Program-made: the position numbers and the translations under genes
The notes under the pieces: generated by a model
The model's input: the letters and a program-made list of their open reading frames with translations, nothing else
The model's database searches: none
Told to the model about the DNA's origin: nothing
Shown here: in pieces, positions 43,914 to 54,803 of the stretch
How positions within the stretch are numbered: position 1 is the first letter of the stretch
How the letters are laid out: each line of letters starts with the position of its first letter
NCBI RefSeq assembly: GCF_040760005.1
Contig: NZ_CP099760.1
Location: 3,219,501 to 3,283,500 of the forward strand
DNA length: 64,000 nt
DNA from: Pseudomonas sp. stari2
Lineage (GTDB): Bacteria; Pseudomonadota; Gammaproteobacteria; Pseudomonadales; Pseudomonadaceae
Direction of reading: 5' to 3'

Positions 43914-45020
43914 TCAGCTCCCGCTCTCTGCGAAACCGTGGAAGAAACTCGCGACGTGCTCGGCGTGCAACGCGGCAAGGGTCGGCGGGTTCCAGCGTGG
44001 TGATTTGTCTTTGTCGATCAGCAGGGCGCGCACGCCTTCGATCAGGTCGCCGCGTTCGAACCACTGGCGATCCAGATGCAGTTCGAGGGCGAAGCACTGT
44101 TCCAGGCTCAGGTGCCGGCCGCGACGCAGCATTTCCAGGGTCACGCCCATGGCCAGCGGCGAACGGGTTTCCAGCAGGTCGGCAGTGGTGGTTGCCCATT
44201 CATGGCTGTCGGCGACGGTCACGGCGCGCAGTTGCTCGACGATGCTCGGCACGTCAGGCAAGGCGAAGAAGTGGTCGATGGCCGGGCGCAAGGCTTCAAG
44301 CGGCGCATCCGGCAGGGTTTGCACGGCGTGGCGGGCCAGCAGGTTTTGCAGATCCTTCAACGGCGTATCGTGCCACTCCAGGTGATCGAGCTGTTCGTCG
44401 AGGATGCCGAGTTTGCTGCTGTCCAGATACCAGTCGGCGAGGCCGCAATACAGCGCATCCGCCGCACGGATCTGCACGCCGCTGACGCCCAGATAAATCC
44501 CCAGCTCGCCGGGAATCCGCGGCAGGAAATAACTGCCACCGACATCCGGGAAATAGCCGATCGCCACTTCCGGCATCGCCAGACGGCTCTTCTCTGTGAC
44601 CACCCGCAGATCGGCGCCTTGCACCAGGCCCATGCCGCCGCCGAGGACAAAACCGTCCATCAGCGCCAACACCGGTTTGCGGTAATGGTGGATCGTCAGG
44701 TCGAGGGCGTATTCCTCGACGAAGAAATCTTCGTGCAGCGTGTCGCCGCTTTTGTGGCTGTCGTACAGGGATCGAATGTCGCCACCGGCACAGAAAGCTT
44801 TCTCGCCGGCACCGCGCAGCACGACGGCGTGGATATCGGCATCGGCGGCCCAGGCGTCCAGGTGTTGCTGGAGCTGGCGCACCATGTCGAGGGTCAGGGC
44901 ATTGAGGCCGGCGGGGCGGTTGAGGGTCAGATGACCGATGTGATTGCGAACCTCGGCCAGCACTTCGTGTGGCGTGGCATCCATGGACGAAGTCCGCGGG
45001 GATGAAGCCTGAGCAGTCAT
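43914..45020 (-). CDS. 3-hydroxyisobutyryl-CoA hydrolase
   Basis: A 368-residue crotonase-fold hydrolase, longer than hydratases at the C-terminus as expected for HIBCH. KAFCAGGDIRSLY (about residue 75), DGFVLGGGMGLVQGADLRVV (about 118) and MPEVAIGYFPDVGGSYFLPR (about 145) are family signatures. It releases free 3-hydroxyisobutyrate from its CoA ester in valine catabolism. ATG 45020 is preferred to the preceding GTG because GGGAG lies six bases before it. It is transcribed with the acyl-CoA dehydrogenase gene downstream. Confidence 0.92.
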   Translation of the reverse strand: MTAQASSPRTSSMDATPHEVLAEVRNHIGHLTLNRPAGLNALTLDMVRQLQQHLDAWAADADIHAVVLRGAGEKAFCAGGDIRSLYDSHKSGDTLHEDFFVEEYALDLTIHHYRKPVLALMDGFVLGGGMGLVQGADLRVVTEKSRLAMPEVAIGYFPDVGGSYFLPRIPGELGIYLGVSGVQIRAADALYCGLADWYLDSSKLGILDEQLDHLEWHDTPLKDLQNLLARHAVQTLPDAPLEALRPAIDHFFALPDVPSIVEQLRAVTVADSHEWATTTADLLETRSPLAMGVTLEMLRRGRHLSLEQCFALELHLDRQWFERGDLIEGVRALLIDKDKSPRWNPPTLAALHAEHVASFFHGFAESGS

Positions 45021-45056
45021 CACTAACTCCCTGCTTTTATTGTCTTTATTCGAGAA

Positions 45057-45187: not shown

Positions 45188-46042
45188 TCATTTACCGCAG
45201 AACTGTGCCTGAAGGGTCCGGGCGCAAAACAGCAGGGCGCGTCTGGCTTCTTCATGGGCGGCGGGGTAGTTCATAAAGCCGTGGCGCATGCCCGAAAACT
45301 CTTTGTGTTTTACTGTGACACCTGCTTTGCGCAGTTGTGCAGCGTAGGCACGGCCTTCATCACGCAGAACGTCATGTCCGCAGGTGATGATCAGTGTCCG
45401 AGGCAATCCATGCAGCGACGCGCTGAGTAGAGGAGATAGCCGTGTATCCGTTCGAGATGTTCCGGGCGGTAGATAGTGACCGAGGTACCATTCGAGCATG
45501 TCTGTGGTCAGCCCACGCCCTTGCGCGAACTTTGTGTGGGAGCGTCGGCGCGTGTGGCAGTCGAGCAAAGGATAAAGCAACAACTGAAAGCAGATACGTG
45601 GTCTGTCACATTCAGTGTCGCGCTGGCTGATAACGGCGGCCATCCCGCCTCCTGAGCCACCTCCTGCGACTGCAATTGCTGAAGAGTCCAGTCCGGAACC
45701 GGCGCCTTGTCGCGTCACCCACTTGAAAGCTGTCCAGCAGTCTTCCAGAGCTGCCGGAAACACGTGTTCCGGAGGACGGGCGTAATCAACGGCAACCACT
45801 TTGCAACCGGCCCACTCACACATCAACCGACAGAACCCGTCATGGGTGTCCAGGTCTCCCGTGACCCAGCCACCGCCGTGGAAGAAAACCAGCACGGGAA
45901 ACGGCCCCTTGCCGGGTGGCGTGTATAGGCGCAGCGGCAGTGACCGGCCCTGGCTTTCAATCGCCAGATCATGAACGCAGGTCACTTGCGCCTGACGCAG
46001 CGCCGTTCTGGTGTCCTCTACAGTCAACGAGGTTTCATTCAT
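45188..46042 (-). CDS. Alpha/beta hydrolase, HSL (hormone-sensitive lipase) family
   Basis: A 284-residue esterase-like enzyme. The oxyanion motif is FFHGGGWVTGD (about residue 72). The nucleophile elbow reads VAGGGSGGGMAA (Ser about 148), which keeps GxSxG but replaces the usual GDSAGG of this family. The acid is in TCGHDVLRDEG and the histidine in GMRHGFMNYPAA near the C-terminus. It may hydrolyse an ester, lactone or thioester product of the P450 fusion enzyme. The start (46042) overlaps the RidA gene by eight bases; longer frames upstream are antisense-like. Third gene of the P450 operon. Confidence 0.87.
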   Translation of the reverse strand: MNETSLTVEDTRTALRQAQVTCVHDLAIESQGRSLPLRLYTPPGKGPFPVLVFFHGGGWVTGDLDTHDGFCRLMCEWAGCKVVAVDYARPPEHVFPAALEDCWTAFKWVTRQGAGSGLDSSAIAVAGGGSGGGMAAVISQRDTECDRPRICFQLLLYPLLDCHTRRRSHTKFAQGRGLTTDMLEWYLGHYLPPGTSRTDTRLSPLLSASLHGLPRTLIITCGHDVLRDEGRAYAAQLRKAGVTVKHKEFSGMRHGFMNYPAAHEEARRALLFCARTLQAQFCGK

Positions 46043-46439
46043 GGCCGCAACCCTTGCCCGAACGGGCCTCTGCCTCGATCTCGATAACGTATTCAGGGCT
46101 GACCAGTCGAGAGACTTCCAGCAGCATTGTCGTCGGTGGATACCCTTCGAAAAACGCTTTGTGCGCCCGCGCGATTTCTGGCAAGAGATCCATGTTGGTG
46201 GTGTACATGCGTGTGGCAATGATGCGGCTACGATCTTCACCCAGTTGTTTCAGCGCCTGTTCGATGATTTTCAGGCATCGCCGTGTCTGGGCATAGGCAT
46301 CACCGGGCTTGAAGGGCTTGCCGTTCTTGCGAAATGCCACCGTACCTCCGACCAGAATAGTGTTGCCGGCCTTCACGGCTCTGCAGTAACCGGCGAGGCG
46401 TTCCCAAGGTGCTCCGGAATAAACACGTTTGAATTTCAT
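46035..46439 (-). CDS. RidA (YjgF/UK114) family protein
   Basis: A 134-residue RidA-fold protein. The trimer-forming core is recognisable in GTVAFRKNGKPFKPGDAYAQ (about residue 32), RMYTTNMDLLPEIARAHKAFF (quoted in part; about 78) and TMLLEVSRLVSPEYVIEIEAEA (about 103), where the Arg of EVSRL matches the substrate-binding arginine of active RidA. RidA proteins hydrolyse reactive enamines and imines, and related proteins do specialised steps in biosynthesis. It starts two bases after the P450 fusion gene stop (GTCTTAACC leader) and is translationally coupled to the hydrolase. Confidence 0.9.
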   Translation of the reverse strand: MKFKRVYSGAPWERLAGYCRAVKAGNTILVGGTVAFRKNGKPFKPGDAYAQTRRCLKIIEQALKQLGEDRSRIIATRMYTTNMDLLPEIARAHKAFFEGYPPTTMLLEVSRLVSPEYVIEIEAEARSGKGCGHE

Positions 46440-46441
46440 GG

Positions 46442-49258
46442 TTAAGACTCCTGTCCCAGATCGACCGGAAGCGTCTTCAAACCCCGGAATTGCAGGTTGT
46501 TGTTTCGCCACGTGCCAGGCCGGCGTGCGATGAGGTGCAAGTGGGGAAAACGTTTCAACAGCGAGGTGAACACGATCTCGGCCTCAAGCCGGAACAGCGC
46601 CGTGCCCATGCAGAAGTGTTCACCTCTCCCGAACGTCAGGTGTTCGTTCCTTGGTCGACGTATATCGAAGTTATCGGGATCGGGGAATTTTGTCGGGTCA
46701 CGATTGGCGGCGGCCCGGACCAGATAAACCAGCTGTCCCTTTTTCATCGTGACGTCGCCGATGGTGACGTCCTCCATGAGCACCCTATGGCTCAGAGAAC
46801 CGGCAGGATCGAAGCGCAGCATTTCTTCAATGAATGAGCCAATCAATGTCGGGTCTGCCAACAGAGTCTTGAGTTGTCCGGGATGCTTCAGCAAATGCAA
46901 CAGGCCGAGGCTCAACTGGTCTGCGCTGGTGGTGTAGCCCGCCACCAGAATGAACACGATCTGTGCCAGCACTTCATCGAGACTGGCGGCGCTGTTCTGA
47001 CCACTCTCCAGTACCCGGCTCACGAGATCATCCCTGGGTTGCCTGCGCCGTTGTTCAATGAGAACAGCGAACCAGGCGTACATCTCCTTGATACCTTCCA
47101 TGGCCTGCTCCGGTCCTTGATCCGCGTCCTGGCTGCCGCCAAGGAACATCACGATGTCTCGTGTCCAGCGCCGAAGATTCAACGCCTCGTCATCTTCCAT
47201 GCCATACAGCCTGGCCAGAATCAGTGCCGGAATCCGGTCAAAAAACCCGGTTTTCAAATCGGTCTGCCCGTGTAAACCTGACAGTTCTCGATCAGTGATG
47301 TCTTGAATGACCGTCCGCAAGGACTCGATGGAGCGCGGTGTGAAGGCATTACCCAGTAACTGACGGCTGGCTTTGTGAAACTTGCCATCCTGGGAGTACA
47401 TCCATCCGGACGCCAGCTTGATGAATTCGGTTACGTGCATGCGTTTGTTTCCAGGCACCCGGGAATCAATCAGTTGTTGCATGCGGTCTGAAGAGAATCG
47501 CCGGGAATCGGCCTGTGCGGCGAAGACATCGCTATAGCGGGTCAGAAACCAGGCGTGCAAATGTTCGCACCAATAGACCGGCCGATTTTCCCGTAGCCAG
47601 GCGTAGGCCTTGTAAGGATTGCGAATCGTATTGCGGTTCGAGAAATTCGGCTCATTGTCGTACAGCGGTTTTGTGAAGCGCTTTACGTAATCCTTTTTGC
47701 CGATGGGGGCGCTCACCAGCTCTGACGGTGGTTTGAGCAGCTTGTTGATCAAGAGCAATTGAGCTTTGGTGGAGTGTCGCTCCAGCTCGGTGCCTACGAC
47801 GAGCCCCCAGTCATAAAGTTTCGAGGAAAAGACACCGACGATGTCCTGAAGTGTCTCGGCTGACACTAGCGAATGGCGTTTGCCTTCTTCGATTATCAGA
47901 TCCAGCGCGCGGGCGCAGGTGAGCGCAACCGCCTGGCGATGGGTGAACTCACCGGCATTGCGGCACTGATCGACAATCTGCGATTCAATCCGTTGGGCGA
48001 TGTTTTCGCTGGCAAACCGTGGCCGGTTTATGGCGTCCCGTGCAACCTGACAGCACAGGACGTTGTTATCGCCTGCGAAGGTCGTGCTGATCTCGTGATC
48101 CATGCACAAGGTGATGATTTGATTGTCATGGTGAAATCCCTGCGAACCACATAATTCTCTGCATGCCCTCATGACCTCAAGTCCCAGCCATGTGCCGGTG
48201 CTTTTGACGATGGCCGCGAGGATATGCAGCTCTGTTCTGCGGGACGGCTGATGCCAGCACGCTTCGAATCGCGCCAGCACTGCATGCTCCAGCAACCTCA
48301 AGGCCAAGACTTTGAGTTGCTCGACATAAAGTCGCTGTCGAAACAGAGGCCTGGTGAGGAGAGGTTGGTTGTTGTCGTCAGCCCTGACCAAACGATGGCA
48401 AGCGAAGCGGTACGTCAGATAAACACACATACCGGCGGCACCACGTGCGCCAGCGATAAGGAAAAGTCGCTCCTGAATGAAGGTCTGCATCGCACATGTC
48501 AGGCGTTCCTTTCGTGGAACCTCACTGGTGAAAACACCGTCGGGAGATAACCTGGCATAGCGTTGCATCATCGCGTCCGGCGATAGCTTCATTTCAGAAA
48601 AACGGATGCCGGCAACTTGATTGGCGTGAATGCCACCCTTGGGATCGCAGGAGGTAACGCTGACACCAGGCAGGAGTGGACCGTTCGCTTTCTCGCGAAT
48701 TCGTACCCGGAACCAATGCAACCCCTCGTCCACGTCATTGACGATCAGACGTCCCAGCACCATTACCACCCCTGCTGCGTGCAATGCGTTGCCGATCCAG
48801 AATTTGCAGGACTGCGGTGTGGGAGAGTTCAGAATCAGGCAATGGTTTTGCGGGTCATAGGTGATTGTGGTTTGCAGGTTGCCGACATCGGAGCCGCTGA
48901 CGATCTCCGTGCAGCCGAAAGCGTAGACCGCACCCAACTCGCAGATTTCTTGGTGGTACTGCGCGGTCTGAAGCTGACTGCCGTGGGCAAACAATGCATC
49001 GCCGGCAATGAAGTGGTCGACGATGCAGGCAAGCAATGAATAGTCCCAGGCGCCGATAAACGCTGCTCGCTCAAGCATCAACCTGAAAGCGGACTTATAG
49101 CGCTGGCCCAGCCACATGTCATTGGTCATGAGCCCATTGCCGATGATCGCGCGCATACGATCGATATTCAGATCCATGTATGCGCGCAGCGACAGGCGAT
49201 GACGCTTCCCGGGGTCGAAAAGGGGTGTTTGCAGTAAATGCAGTAGTGGGTCGCTCAT
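46442..49258 (-). CDS. Acyl-CoA oxidase-like flavoprotein fused to cytochrome P450
   Basis: A 938-residue fusion. Residues about 1-520 follow peroxisomal-type acyl-CoA oxidases: LFDPGKRHRLSLRAYMDL, FGCTEIVSGSDVGNLQTT (about 115-130), and a helical end with CGSQGFHHDN (about 370-379). Residues about 530-938 are a complete P450: I-helix VAGYTTSAD (772-780), ExxR as EMLR (812-815), and heme loop TFGRGEHFCMGTA with ligand Cys 883. No reductase or ferredoxin domain is present. The oxidase glutamate of the FEGEN motif aligns with Ala 395 (FAGDN), though Glu 263 (QERLFL) falls where isovaleryl-CoA dehydrogenase has its base. ATG 49258 has AGAGGA seven bases upstream. I recall an acyl-CoA dehydrogenase-P450 fusion in P. 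fluorescens named CYP221; the function is not known to me. Confidence 0.92.
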   Translation of the reverse strand: MSDPLLHLLQTPLFDPGKRHRLSLRAYMDLNIDRMRAIIGNGLMTNDMWLGQRYKSAFRLMLERAAFIGAWDYSLLACIVDHFIAGDALFAHGSQLQTAQYHQEICELGAVYAFGCTEIVSGSDVGNLQTTITYDPQNHCLILNSPTPQSCKFWIGNALHAAGVVMVLGRLIVNDVDEGLHWFRVRIREKANGPLLPGVSVTSCDPKGGIHANQVAGIRFSEMKLSPDAMMQRYARLSPDGVFTSEVPRKERLTCAMQTFIQERLFLIAGARGAAGMCVYLTYRFACHRLVRADDNNQPLLTRPLFRQRLYVEQLKVLALRLLEHAVLARFEACWHQPSRRTELHILAAIVKSTGTWLGLEVMRACRELCGSQGFHHDNQIITLCMDHEISTTFAGDNNVLCCQVARDAINRPRFASENIAQRIESQIVDQCRNAGEFTHRQAVALTCARALDLIIEEGKRHSLVSAETLQDIVGVFSSKLYDWGLVVGTELERHSTKAQLLLINKLLKPPSELVSAPIGKKDYVKRFTKPLYDNEPNFSNRNTIRNPYKAYAWLRENRPVYWCEHLHAWFLTRYSDVFAAQADSRRFSSDRMQQLIDSRVPGNKRMHVTEFIKLASGWMYSQDGKFHKASRQLLGNAFTPRSIESLRTVIQDITDRELSGLHGQTDLKTGFFDRIPALILARLYGMEDDEALNLRRWTRDIVMFLGGSQDADQGPEQAMEGIKEMYAWFAVLIEQRRRQPRDDLVSRVLESGQNSAASLDEVLAQIVFILVAGYTTSADQLSLGLLHLLKHPGQLKTLLADPTLIGSFIEEMLRFDPAGSLSHRVLMEDVTIGDVTMKKGQLVYLVRAAANRDPTKFPDPDNFDIRRPRNEHLTFGRGEHFCMGTALFRLEAEIVFTSLLKRFPHLHLIARRPGTWRNNNLQFRGLKTLPVDLGQES

Positions 49259-49615
49259 GAAACGTTCCTCTCGCAGATTTCGAAACCATGGATTCGAAAA
49301 CCACCAGATTCGCGGAGCTGGCGAAAAACACACTTGCCCGCCTGCTACAGGCGGGGCATTTGGGCGGACTGCTGATTACGCAGAAATGCGGTGTTTGAGG
49401 AAAATAACGGTTCAGTCAAAGCGCAAAGCCAGCTCGCTTCTCAACGGCATTGAGCGTTTTCCTATAGCCAGACTACCGATGTCATCGCTACTGGACATTA
49501 CAGCGGGCCAGACTTCAAAGTGAAAGGCAGACAGATCTGTGCGGTACAAAGTTGAAAGGTAGTCGTTGGTCATGTCTTGGCAAGGACGTTCGATAACCTT
49601 CGGTCGGATCACGTT
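49259..49615. other. 357-base intergenic region upstream of the P450 fusion operon
   Basis: This region must hold the promoter of the P450 operon. It is relatively AT-rich (29 G/C in the 60 bases from 49381). It contains an eight-base-pair stem, CCCGCCTG-CTA-CAGGCGGG (49337-49355). A minus-strand frame, 49412-49573, could encode 53 residues starting MTNDYLSTLYRTDLSAF, but it lacks a good ribosome binding site and I recognise no homologue. No clear -35/-10 pair or regulator site could be assigned by eye. Confidence 0.4.
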
Positions 49616-50311
49616 TTACCCGCGACCACTAAGCACTTCACTGATGCTCCGCCGCTTGGCATGCAACTCACTGGCATGAATCAACTGCTCCAGGTCCTCC
49701 GGCGTGACATCGATGAATGCTTCCATGTCGGCCAGCGCCCGTTTCAGGTCTTCGGCGGTGATGGCCTGATTGTCGACCGGCGCCACGGCCGGCGCAGGTT
49801 CGGCGGGGCGCTTCGGGTAGCGGATGCGGGTCAGGTTGTTGTAGGCCAAAGCGGCCAGCAGCATGCACGCGGCGCTGAGCATCACCGGTTCCAGGGCTTT
49901 CCAGTCCATGGCGATGGTCATCGGATCGGCCAGCACCATCGTCAATGCCACCGCGCCGGCCGGTGGATGCAGGCAGCGCAGCCAGCACATCAGGATCAGC
50001 GCCATGCCTGCCGCGAGGCACGCGCTGCCCAAGGTTCGTCCGAGGACGTGGGCCACCAGCAACGCGACGACGCCCGCACACAGGTAGCCGCCGATGATCG
50101 ACCACGGCTGGGCGAGGGCGCCGGAGGACACCGCGAACAACAGCACCGCCGAAGCACCCAGCGGACCGATCAGGTGGTAGGCCACTTCAATGCCGAACAC
50201 CTGACTGCATGCCCACACACTGAACAACGTGCCCAGGGCCATGCCGATCGCGGCGCGGCTCCATTCGGTGGGGCGGGTGTTGATGGCAGCGGGCAACCAG
50301 CGAGCGAGCAT
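49616..50311 (-). CDS. HPP-family integral membrane protein
   Basis: A 231-residue membrane protein with four to five TM segments and the family-defining CLHPPAGAVALTMVLA (about residue 113). GPLGASAVLLFAVSSG and AQPWSIIGGYL (about 48-72) are further HPP signatures; related proteins in plants and cyanobacteria carry nitrite. The C-terminal cytoplasmic tail (about 175-231) is acidic and helical. It lies beyond the terminator of the upstream operon, so it is probably expressed on its own. Confidence 0.88.
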   Translation of the reverse strand: MLARWLPAAINTRPTEWSRAAIGMALGTLFSVWACSQVFGIEVAYHLIGPLGASAVLLFAVSSGALAQPWSIIGGYLCAGVVALLVAHVLGRTLGSACLAAGMALILMCWLRCLHPPAGAVALTMVLADPMTIAMDWKALEPVMLSAACMLLAALAYNNLTRIRYPKRPAEPAPAVAPVDNQAITAEDLKRALADMEAFIDVTPEDLEQLIHASELHAKRRSISEVLSGRG

Positions 50312-51665: not shown

Positions 51666-53018
51666 TTATTCGGTTAACAGGTGCTCGAGATCGCGCACGG
51701 AATCCAGCGTTTGCAGTTGCCACAGCTGCGCCAAAAGCGGTTCGGCCTTGACCGGTGAAATCACTCGCAACGCCAGACTGAAAAACTTTTCCTCCAGCGC
51801 CGCCTCGCTCAGCGGATTGCCCGGCGCACCCAGCGGCACCTCGACGCACAGGCTCGCCTCACGCCCGTCGCGGGTTCGAACAATGACCACCGGCTCGCCA
51901 TCCTCCGACAGTCGCTCATCCACTTCAAGGCGAATGCGCGTCAGCCATTGAGCGATGCGCGGATCGTTGCGCGGCTGCTCATCGTAAGCCTCGAGTCGAC
52001 AGTGCCCGTGCACCAGTCGCGCGGCGAGGGCGTAGGGCAGGCTCATCTGCGCGGCGGCGAGGCTGCGGGTGTCGCGACCGCCACACATGTCGAGCAGAAA
52101 CCCGCACAGGTTCACCTGGACGTCTTCCACCTGATCGGCGCCGACCTGCAATTGCTCCAGCAACAAACCGAGCGCATCGATCGCCGAATGGGTGCCACGG
52201 CAGGCGGCGTAGGGTTTGATCGAACAGCGCGCGAGTTTCCAGACCTGTCCCAACCCGGCGTCCAATGCATCCGGTTGCGCGCTACCCGGCGCGAGAGTCT
52301 TGAGAAATCCCCCCCAGACATCATCGAACAACACCGACGGCCCGCTGACGCCTTCGCGAGCAAAACGCGCCGCGAGCAGACCACCTTCGGCAGCGCGTCC
52401 GCTGTGCAGTTTCTTGCTTTGCGAACCGTCGTGGATGAACGCCCACAACCCGCCGCTGAAACTGCCGGCGATGCCCAGCGCCGACACCGTTTGCCCGACA
52501 TCCAGCGCAAAGATCCGCGCACAGGCCGCGGCCGCGCCGAACACGCCGCAGGTGGCGGTGGAGTGCCAACCGGCGCTGTTGTGCGCCGCATAACTGCCGC
52601 AGGCTTCCAGCACCCGCCGGCCGATTTCATAGCCGATCACCACAGCAGTGATGAACTCGCGACCGTCCACCGGGCGATCCACCAGTGACAGCGCCGCCAT
52701 CACCGCCGGCAGCACCACCGCGCCGGAATGATCGCAACCGCCGGTGTCGTCCAGTTCCAGCGCATGGGCGGCGATACCGTTGAGCAATGCGGCGTGCCCC
52801 GCACCGACGCCCAGTGTTGTACCCCAGACCAGTGCGGTGCCCGGTTCGGCGCCGAACACCTGCCGAGCCTGGAGCGCCACCGCACTGTCGGCCCCGGCCA
52901 GCGCTGCGCCGAAGGTGTCGAGAATGTGTCGCTTGGCCTGTTCCACCAACGCTGGGGGCAGATCTTCAAACCGGGTCTCGGCGCAAAACTGTGCCAGCCG
53001 CTGCATGCGTTCGGTCAT
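51666..53018 (-). CDS. MmgE/PrpD family protein
   Basis: A 450-residue member of the family that includes 2-methylcitrate dehydratase, cis-aconitate decarboxylase and iminodisuccinate epimerase. Signatures include LDTFGAALAGADS (about residue 33), HALELDDTGGCDHSGAVVLPA (about 85; Asp-Asp and His typical of the active site), GWHSTATCGVFGAAAACARI (about 150) and IKPYAACRGTHSAIDA (about 268), each quoted in part. It is not beside prpB/prpC, so methylcitrate metabolism is unlikely. The start overlaps the deacetylase stop by four bases. An isomerase, epimerase or dehydratase step on a dicarboxylate-like compound is inferred. Confidence 0.88.
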   Translation of the reverse strand: MTERMQRLAQFCAETRFEDLPPALVEQAKRHILDTFGAALAGADSAVALQARQVFGAEPGTALVWGTTLGVGAGHAALLNGIAAHALELDDTGGCDHSGAVVLPAVMAALSLVDRPVDGREFITAVVIGYEIGRRVLEACGSYAAHNSAGWHSTATCGVFGAAAACARIFALDVGQTVSALGIAGSFSGGLWAFIHDGSQSKKLHSGRAAEGGLLAARFAREGVSGPSVLFDDVWGGFLKTLAPGSAQPDALDAGLGQVWKLARCSIKPYAACRGTHSAIDALGLLLEQLQVGADQVEDVQVNLCGFLLDMCGGRDTRSLAAAQMSLPYALAARLVHGHCRLEAYDEQPRNDPRIAQWLTRIRLEVDERLSEDGEPVVIVRTRDGREASLCVEVPLGAPGNPLSEAALEEKFFSLALRVISPVKAEPLLAQLWQLQTLDSVRDLEHLLTE

Positions 53019-53905
53019 ACGAGGTAGTCCCGATAGTGGCGTTCATACACTGACGCTGGGTGATCCTGCGCGACCGGCGCCGCCGTTTGCGCCCACCACT
53101 GCGCGACTTCGGCGCCGGTGGCGATCCACACGTCGTCATGCTGCTGAATGCCTTGCAGCAATTCGCGCAGCACGCCGATGCGCCCCGGCGTGGCAATGAT
53201 TTCCGGGTGCAGGCGCAGCACGTAGCACAGTCCGAAGCGGTGAAATCCGGCGAAGTCCATTTGCAGGTTGCCCAGGGTGTGGCTGTAGGAGGCGATCCGC
53301 GATTGCGCCGGCGGCACGGCCGGGCTCAGGTTGAAGGCGAAATAGGGTTCGTCTTCCAGTTCGTAATGCAGCGGCAACTCGACGACTTCAGGCGCGGTTG
53401 GATGAAGGAACGGCAGGTCATCGCCGCGCCATGAGGACGACCAGTGGATGCCGTGATCCTTCAAGGCTTCGATGAATCCCGGTGCGCCGTTACCCGCAGG
53501 AATCCGGAAACCGGTCGGACGCACGCCGGTCATTGCTTTCAGCGCTGCGCAGCCTTTGGCGATTTCCGCGCTTTGGGCTGCCAGATCCAGCGTGTCGTAA
53601 TCCTGATGGCGGTAGCCGGCGCAGGCGATTTCATGGCCGTCAGCCTGGATCGCGGCGATATGCTGCGGGTTTTCCTCGGCGACGATGCCGGGCACGAACC
53701 AGCTGCTGCGCACCCCGAGTTCCCTGAACAGGCCGAGCAATCGCTCTACACCCCGTTGTGTGCCGTAGCGCCACACCGACAACGTCTTGTCGCGCCCGGC
53801 AACTTCCGGGGCCTGGGTGAGAATGCCGTGGATGTCGTTGTAATCGACGGTCAGCACCACCGCGCAGCGTTTGCGGGCGGGCCAGAGATTGTCAGCGTCA
53901 GCCAT
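53015..53905 (-). CDS. Polysaccharide-deacetylase-fold protein B (PuuE-like), metal site degenerate
   Basis: A 296-residue NodB/PuuE-fold hydrolase homologue: CAVVLTVDYNDIHG (about residue 14), VRSSWFVPGIVAEENP (about 68), ACAGYRHQDYD (about 93), GFRIPAGNGAPGF (about 132) and WSSSWRGDDLPF (about 154). Compared with its neighbour, the second motif-1 aspartate reads as Asn and the first histidine of HxxxH as Ala (AGYRH). PuuE allantoinase is reported to work without metal, so activity is still possible. It may be the partner subunit of protein A. It overlaps the neighbours by eight and four bases. The substrate is probably an amide or imide, not a polysaccharide. Confidence 0.87.
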   Translation of the reverse strand: MADADNLWPARKRCAVVLTVDYNDIHGILTQAPEVAGRDKTLSVWRYGTQRGVERLLGLFRELGVRSSWFVPGIVAEENPQHIAAIQADGHEIACAGYRHQDYDTLDLAAQSAEIAKGCAALKAMTGVRPTGFRIPAGNGAPGFIEALKDHGIHWSSSWRGDDLPFLHPTAPEVVELPLHYELEDEPYFAFNLSPAVPPAQSRIASYSHTLGNLQMDFAGFHRFGLCYVLRLHPEIIATPGRIGVLRELLQGIQQHDDVWIATGAEVAQWWAQTAAPVAQDHPASVYERHYRDYLV

Positions 53906-54743
53906 GGTGATGCTCCTTCAGCCACCAGCGTGCTACGTCGCGACAGGTGGCGAACCACACGTCATCGCGCTGGCGCATGTGTTCGAAGAGTTTCTCCAAC
54001 AACAGGATGCGTCCCGGTTTGCCGGTGATTTTCGGGTGGAACAGGGTGGTCAGGCACAGGCCTTCGTCCATCGCGCCGTCGTACTCGCGCTGCCAGTTGT
54101 CGAGGGTCAGCTCGTAGCTGGCGGTGCGGTCGAGCCCGGAAGGAAAGTTCGGTGCGCGGGTGTAGGCGAGGGAGGCGTAGTCGTCCATTTCCCAGCGGCC
54201 GGGGATTTCCACCAAGGGCGTGTCGTGGCCGGGGACGTTGACCAGATACGGGCGATCATCGCCGCGCATGCTGCTGGAATAGATGACGCCGTTGTCCGCC
54301 AGCATCGCTGGCGTCTCGGCACGCCAGTCGCCGGACGGAGTGCGAAAGCCCTCGGCGCGGATGTGCAGGTATTGCCAGAAGACGTCGCGGGACTTGTTCA
54401 TCACGGCCTGCTGCTGGTCCAGCGTCAGGGCGTAGAAGGATTCGTGTTTGTAGCCGTGGTAGGCGACCTCATGGCCGCGCTCGACGACGGCCTGGCACTG
54501 TTTCGGCCAGTTTTCCACGACCCACGCGGGGACGAAGAAGGTGGTCGGGATCTTGAAGGTGTCGAGCAGATCCAGCAGGCGTGGCAATGCGCGGTAGGGT
54601 CCGTAGCCGCCGAAGCCGAAATACTCGGGTTTGTGCCAGATCGAGTTGTTGAGCATGGCATCGCCGGTCGGGCCGTCGAGGTCGAAGGCCAGGGCCAGGC
54701 AGGCTTTGTGCTGGTCGGGCCAGGTGGGTTGCAGGGAGGACAT
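53898..54743 (-). CDS. Polysaccharide-deacetylase-fold protein A (PuuE-like)
   Basis: A 281-residue NodB/PuuE-fold enzyme with intact metal-site motifs: LAFDLDGPTGD (motif 1, about residue 20), AYHGYKHESFY (HxxxH, about 95), GFRTPSGDWRAETP (about 134) and YSSSMRGDDRPY (about 156). No signal peptide, so it acts in the cytoplasm on a small molecule that the ABC importer could deliver. Cleavage of a linear or cyclic amide is the usual chemistry of this branch. ATG 54743 has GGGAGG upstream in the mRNA. It is paralogous to the following gene and overlaps it by eight bases. Confidence 0.88.
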   Translation of the reverse strand: MSSLQPTWPDQHKACLALAFDLDGPTGDAMLNNSIWHKPEYFGFGGYGPYRALPRLLDLLDTFKIPTTFFVPAWVVENWPKQCQAVVERGHEVAYHGYKHESFYALTLDQQQAVMNKSRDVFWQYLHIRAEGFRTPSGDWRAETPAMLADNGVIYSSSMRGDDRPYLVNVPGHDTPLVEIPGRWEMDDYASLAYTRAPNFPSGLDRTASYELTLDNWQREYDGAMDEGLCLTTLFHPKITGKPGRILLLEKLFEHMRQRDDVWFATCRDVARWWLKEHHHG

Positions 54744-54803
54744 CAAAGGCGCTCCGGCTGTTCATGAAAAAGGCGCCGACCGGTTGGGTCGGCGCAGACC
54801 GGT

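Follow-up and report, generated by a model that had tools for sequence, protein, structure and literature searches.

The window, a 64,000-nucleotide stretch of Pseudomonas sp. stari2 (contig NZ_CP099760.1, positions 3,219,501 to 3,283,500), harbours on its minus strand one open frame of 938 codons that begins with an ATG at position 49258, contains no internal stop codons and encodes both an acyl-CoA-oxidase (ACOX)-like flavoprotein and a cytochrome P450 (Table 1). An alternative GTG start further upstream would give a protein of 963 instead of 938 aa. The sequence MSDPLL at the start is common to the window gene, to its two nearest unfused relatives (G016 and G074) and to a second fused gene, G910, described below.

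A profile search of the frame identified both halves. Using Pfam, the p450 family was matched with 92.5 bits (cut-off 22.8), with the best stretch at residues 732–905, and a phmmer search against solved structures extended the P450 to residues 546–935 through its match to PksS. In the N-terminal half we found ACOX_C_alpha1 (PF22924; 56.3 bits, cut-off 27) and Acyl-CoA_dh_1 (48.3 bits, cut-off 22.4), while Acyl-CoA_dh_M (PF02770) scored 32.5 bits, slightly below its cut-off of 33.3. All these ACOX/ACAD domains are located within residues 113–408. Neither the ACOX N-terminal domain nor the last ACOX domain was matched by Pfam at E-values up to 1, nor was any further family, and residues ~410 to 535 were without a family match. 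The earlier note, made from the sequence of this region, had described a full acyl-CoA oxidase module; the ACOX-like part of this description holds, but the module is not full. In agreement with its statement that the frame contains no electron-transfer partner, Pfam gave no ferredoxin, flavodoxin or reductase domain in the fused frame, in the RidA-like gene or in the hydrolase that follow it.

Table 1. Features of the oxidase-P450 locus, in positions of the window.
Feature	Position	Strand	Basis
Fused gene, ACOX-like flavoprotein and cytochrome P450, 938 aa	46442..49258	-	open frame, Pfam, same fusion in G910
ACOX-like half, residues 1-535	47654..49258	-	Pfam; PDB profile match to ACOX 1is2/7q84; separate gene in 13/15 carriers
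P450 half, residues 541-938	46445..47638	-	Pfam and matches to solved P450s
Junction LYDNEPNFS	47636..47662	-	net loss of 23 nt vs seven relatives in which ACOX and P450 are two genes
Codon of Glu263, at the helix G position, putative relocated base	48470..48472	-	invariant in 17/17; ACAD alignment; HHalign for two
Ala395 codon, where ACOX enzymes have their catalytic Glu (TFAG instead of TFEG)	48074..48076	-	alignments
I-helix VAGYTTSAD, with the alcohol but not the acid of the usual pair	46919..46945	-	P450 alignment
Heme-ligand Cys883	46610..46612	-	P450 alignment
RidA-family gene, 134 aa, without the catalytic Arg	46035..46439	-	PF01042 72.9 bits; alignments
HSL-type alpha/beta hydrolase, 284 aa	45188..46042	-	Abhydrolase_3 225.7 bits; LipP1 308 bits, below cut-off 350
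HPP-type membrane protein gene, upstream flank	49616..50311	-	name read from the sequence; no NCBIfam match
3-hydroxyisobutyryl-CoA hydrolase, downstream flank	43914..45023	-	NF004127 418 bits, cut-off 274

The RidA-family gene lies on the same strand, 2 nt past the stop codon of the fused gene, and is in turn overlapped by 8 nt by the start of the hydrolase gene. The earlier note names neither of these two genes and gives no strand for the frame. The RidA-like protein has PPTT where the solved proteins 1x25 and 2dyy have PAR, the arginine of which we take to be the catalytic residue of the imine deaminase in RidA relatives; the best solved match, 3i7t, is also without this arginine. The G+C content of the cassette is about 55–59%, compared to about 60–67% in the flanks shown. 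The cassette includes no gene for an acyl-carrier, a CoA ligase or a regulator, and a CoA substrate is therefore an assumption. A promoter scan gave no sigma-70-like sites (2.5 expected) and three terminator-like sites (4.8 expected). A hairpin with a T-rich tail is located at 49336–49352 on the minus strand, ~80 nt upstream of the fusion start; such terminator-like sites are not above chance in this part of the window. Elsewhere in the window, the region 53015–54746 contains a tandem pair of adjoining polysaccharide-deacetylase/PuuE-type genes, beside an MmgE/PrpD-like gene and an amino-acid-type ABC transporter; 53015–53905 was scanned and matched, and the remaining names were read from the sequence.

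We searched for the cassette in other genomes. Among 298 genomes of the genus, seven carry cassette genes (the window's included), and a second, overlapping draw gave 10 out of 398. A pattern scan of species genomes, which used two short peptide patterns and can miss divergent members, yielded 16 loci, 10 from Pseudomonas and six from actinobacteria (Nocardia, Lentzea and Saccharopolyspora; one of them a fragment), while a protein-only scan of the same species-genome set gave no matches. Once duplicates were merged, 15 distinct Pseudomonas carriers were obtained, including the window; two of these, L027 and L028, share 99% identity in their ACOX-like part. In 14 of the 15 (the window, 12 others and G910) all four genes lie side by side in one conserved order, and in the 15th, G895, only the ACOX-like and P450-RidA genes were covered. 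ACOX-like homologues were found in two of 349 genomes of the phylum and two of 244 genomes of the order, all within this genus. Of 898 plasmid records with a match, none reached 80% of the query, and the 15 matches listed out of these 898 concern the P450 half only. A P450 of G319 (32%) was not counted as a member.

The actinobacterial loci were not counted as carrying the same cassette; one P450 located nearby (L034:12767-13975) shows 34% over 151 residues. The ACOX-like members found there (L033:4769-12500, L034, L036 and L038) are 45–46% identical and lie beside a conserved 293-aa hydrolase, which in L033, the one scanned, is Abhydrolase_1. Also near the L033 locus are a zinc alcohol dehydrogenase, a salicylate synthase (TIGR03494, 351 bits, over the cut-off) and an IclR regulator. 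The Saccharopolyspora elongata locus (L037:2090-2224) aligns to the ACOX-like protein over residues 8–52 only and is apparently a truncated copy.

Among the 15 Pseudomonas carriers, oxidase and P450 are fused in two, the window and G910, and separate in 13, so the fusion is not required. The earlier note had regarded homologues that are always two separate genes as evidence against a natural fusion. This is nearly the pattern that we observed, and it is broken by G910, a second species in which a fused frame of 939 aa is 83% identical to the window protein over residues 1–935 and has the same junction. With an open frame of 938 codons in the window and its repetition in G910, the joining of oxidase-like and P450 modules is real. 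A fusion unique to the window genome, to which the first set of other distinct loci had pointed (0/12), was overturned by G910 in the wider draw. In six carriers (L020=G171, L029=G861, L030, L031, L032 and G895) P450 and RidA share one frame, with the RidA domain at the C-terminal end, and in seven (L019 and L023–L028) there is no fusion at all. The P450 is joined to one neighbour or the other in 8/15 carriers.

The junction was compared with that of relatives. In the 11 relatives read, the ACOX stop codon is followed after 1–2 nt by the nearest in-frame ATG of the P450. The window gene shows a net gap of 23 nt with respect to L019, L023–L027 and L029, in all of which ACOX and P450 are separate; the other four aligned relatives are 1 nt shorter. 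As a result, the ACOX stop no longer lies in the reading frame and the P450 has lost its start codon, which makes the fusion obligate. The G910 junction LYDNEPDFSNRNT is in the same register as LYDNEPNFSNRNT of the window, and the deletion is therefore taken as common to both.

Between the window gene and G910, dN/dS was 0.217 for the ACOX-like half, 0.151 for the P450 half and 0.120 for residues 525–560, with dS of 0.46 to 0.59. These low values between two fused genes indicate that the fusion is maintained, and together with the common junction they rule out a sequencing error or a pseudogene. Compared to the unfused L023 (the same locus as G016), dN/dS was 0.171 (ACOX) and 0.113 (P450), rough values with dS near or above 1 (0.96 and 1.62, respectively). 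The trees of the ACOX-like protein and of the P450 have the same branching order for 12 Pseudomonas loci, a set without G910. In these trees, the window ACOX branch is about equal to that of its unfused sisters, whereas the window P450 branch measures 0.27 versus about 0.17–0.18 in the sisters (about 1.5–1.6x), suggesting that constraint on the P450 half may be partly relaxed.

The cassette genes (45188–49258) lie at a site between 45023 and 49616. In six of 12 non-carriers checked, the HPP gene and the CoA hydrolase gene are direct neighbours, i.e. the site is empty; in the other six, HPP was not found in the stretch covered. In comparison with G016, dS is 0.19–0.34 for eight flanking genes, versus 0.91 for RidA and 1.07 for the HSL-type hydrolase. 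Protein identity to G910 is likewise 95–99.6% in the flanks versus 79–92% in the cassette. Because the site is empty in six of the 12 non-carriers and the divergence of the cassette is far above that of its flanks, the genes appear to form an accessory cassette that is exchanged at a single fixed site of the chromosome. The four-gene cassette, the alternative fusions, the junction common to two species under selection and the fixed site are all established.

The gene order in 14/15 carriers, the P450 fusions in 8/15 and the purifying selection in two species indirectly support a functional coupling of oxidase and P450. Moreover, the linkage across diverged carriers, the two P450-centred fusions and the selection on the fused form make it likely that the cassette enzymes share one pathway. 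We therefore favour, with a probability of about 0.5, the reading that two enzymes of one pathway are placed on one chain within an accessory four-enzyme cassette and that the P450 obtains its electrons in trans. A serious rival, even if we think it unlikely, is a neutral join of neighbouring genes, that is, a near-neutral accident of tight gene packing in which the chain works equally well fused or apart and its halves have consecutive or even unrelated jobs. Such a join would fit the spacing of 1–2 nt in the 11 relatives, the two different P450 fusions in different clades and the longer P450 branch in the window lineage. Unrelated jobs are opposed by the four-gene linkage across divergent carriers and by the dN/dS values of the two species with the fusion, which are low for each half as well as near the junction, but neither of these opposes a neutral join.

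The P450 half is PksS/BioI/CYP107-like, with PksS (208 bits), BioI (205 bits) and P450eryF (188 bits) among its best solved relatives. It resembles these in the ExxR (EEMLR) and heme-cysteine (FGRGEHFCMG) signatures, which are present in 12/12 aligned P450s, and differs from them in being fused to a flavoprotein. These two motifs, named in the earlier note, were borne out; the I-helix, also named there, was found, but the usual acid is absent. Where PksS has AGLETT and BioI AGHETT, the family studied here has AGYTT (six of 12 aligned P450s), AGYNT (two) or AATTT (four). In all 12 the acid is replaced by Thr or Asn and the alcohol (Thr) is kept; in G910 the acid is absent too. A passage of PMC10750395 reports that CYP152 peroxygenases substitute the acid-alcohol pair.

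These observations bear on a second alternative, proposed in the earlier note beside channelling of an acyl group from one site to the other, in which the ACOX-like half is a true oxidase and its H2O2 drives the P450 by the peroxide shunt, forming a self-contained peroxygenase without an electron-transfer partner. In its favour are an I-helix without the acid and the finding of no redox partner domain in either frame or cassette, and the N-terminal half does belong to an ACOX-like family. However, the I-helix threonine is retained, the two enzymes are apart in 13/15 carriers, and many bacterial P450s use partners encoded elsewhere. Peroxide supply would hardly account for the P450-RidA fusion of 6/15 carriers, which further weakens this reading, and we consider it improbable.

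The best solved relatives of the ACOX-like half are the peroxisomal acyl-CoA oxidases 1is2 (rat-type; E 6e-33) and 7q84 (human ACOX1; E 3e-32), aligned over profile positions 88–407. Of the 12 solved sequences matched at E up to 1e-5, nine are ACOX (E 6e-33 to 5e-25) and three are glutaryl-CoA dehydrogenases (E about 1e-5). The ACOX-like part is about 538 aa long, compared to 659–709 aa in peroxisomal acyl-CoA oxidases. It differs from these enzymes also in its active site. The catalytic glutamate of the JK loop (TFEG or TWEG in ACOX) is Ala395 (TFAG) in 17/17 aligned family members, five of which are actinobacterial, and G910 has TFAG as well. Glu263, within QER, is invariant in the same 17 members and is a candidate base on helix G that may replace the lost glutamate. 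Neither of these two residues, nor the absent I-helix acid, is mentioned in the earlier note. The motifs CTE and CK.WIG, presumably those of the ACAD/ACOX flavin site, are both present.

To place Glu263, we used seven aligned sequences out of the 20 ACAD-type matches in the same genome. Glu263 aligns with a glutamate of L046 (FQSER), L048 (FQEER) and L049 (LDYER), in which the JK residues are Gly, Gly and Ala, respectively. In L043, L044 and L047 the helix-G residue is Gly and the JK residue Glu; in L050 the two are Gly and Asp. Judged from its GAGTSE motif, L049 is presumably an isovaleryl-CoA dehydrogenase (IVD). HHalign reproduced the Glu263 match for L046 and L048 with modest probabilities (37 and 82%), and its local alignments to the remaining four of six templates end before helix G. 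According to a passage of a 2024 paper on long-chain acyl-CoA dehydrogenase (LCAD), LCAD and IVD are the only known acyl-CoA dehydrogenases with their base on helix G, all others having it in the JK loop (PMC10925408); a passage of PMC12369846 likewise places the base of IVD on helix G. Glu263 and Ala395 show, by alignment only, this same combination of a helix-G glutamate with a non-acidic JK residue. Membership in the ACAD branch, however, was not found, as the half scores as ACOX in the profile matches to solved structures. Since the family scores as ACOX whereas IVD and LCAD belong to the ACAD branch, the helix-G-base arrangement looks independently evolved. The relocated base is established as a signature at the sequence level, and a dead ACOX half was not considered further, given the invariant Glu263 at the alternative base position.

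A different flavoenzyme of the ACAD fold (a flavin monooxygenase or nitroalkane-oxidase-like) or a scaffold, no longer a thioester dehydrogenase, would fit the change of the catalytic Glu to Ala in 17/17, the cassette without a CoA-related gene and a RidA-like neighbour that may hint at nitrogen-containing intermediates, but it is very doubtful given the invariant Glu at the alternative base position and the retained CTE and CK.WIG motifs. We give equally little credence to a self-sufficient peroxygenase in which a helix-G-base oxidase of the ACOX branch would pass both its unsaturated product and H2O2 to the acid-less P450 on the same chain.

In the reading that we prefer, two enzymes of one pathway on one chain, the N-terminal half would be an FAD-dependent dehydrogenase or oxidase acting on an acyl thioester, with Glu263 on helix G as its putative base in place of the JK-loop glutamate. 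The C-terminal P450 would oxidise the same acyl skeleton, either after or before the first half, with electrons probably coming from a ferredoxin/reductase of another locus. Further conversion or release of the product may be the task of the RidA-like protein and the HSL-type hydrolase. Two neighbouring genes 1–2 nt apart would have been fused in a common ancestor by a deletion of net 23 nt, presumably in a single event, and the fusion would subsequently have been kept in at least two species.

Known P450 fusions mostly join the P450 to its electron donor. In the self-sufficient CYP102 and CYP116 fusions, a P450 and a flavoprotein are on one chain as in the window gene, and the partner is an NAD(P)H reductase. 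Unlike this reductase, the acyl-CoA-oxidase-like partner found here is not a known P450 electron donor. The CYP221 fusion of P. fluorescens, mentioned in the earlier note, is presumably an acyl-CoA-dehydrogenase-P450 fusion and a candidate for the same gene family. We found no description of it in the open-licence literature, where the one mention of CYP221A obtained is a count in a table of PMC7998510.

At the locus studied here, a P450 is joined to an enzyme with which it is expected to share a substrate, rather than to an electron donor. The oxidase-fused, RidA-fused and fully separate forms provide a panel of natural sequences suited to tests of both channelling and peroxide supply. The cassette points to a new Pseudomonas pathway, one that appears to be exchanged horizontally.
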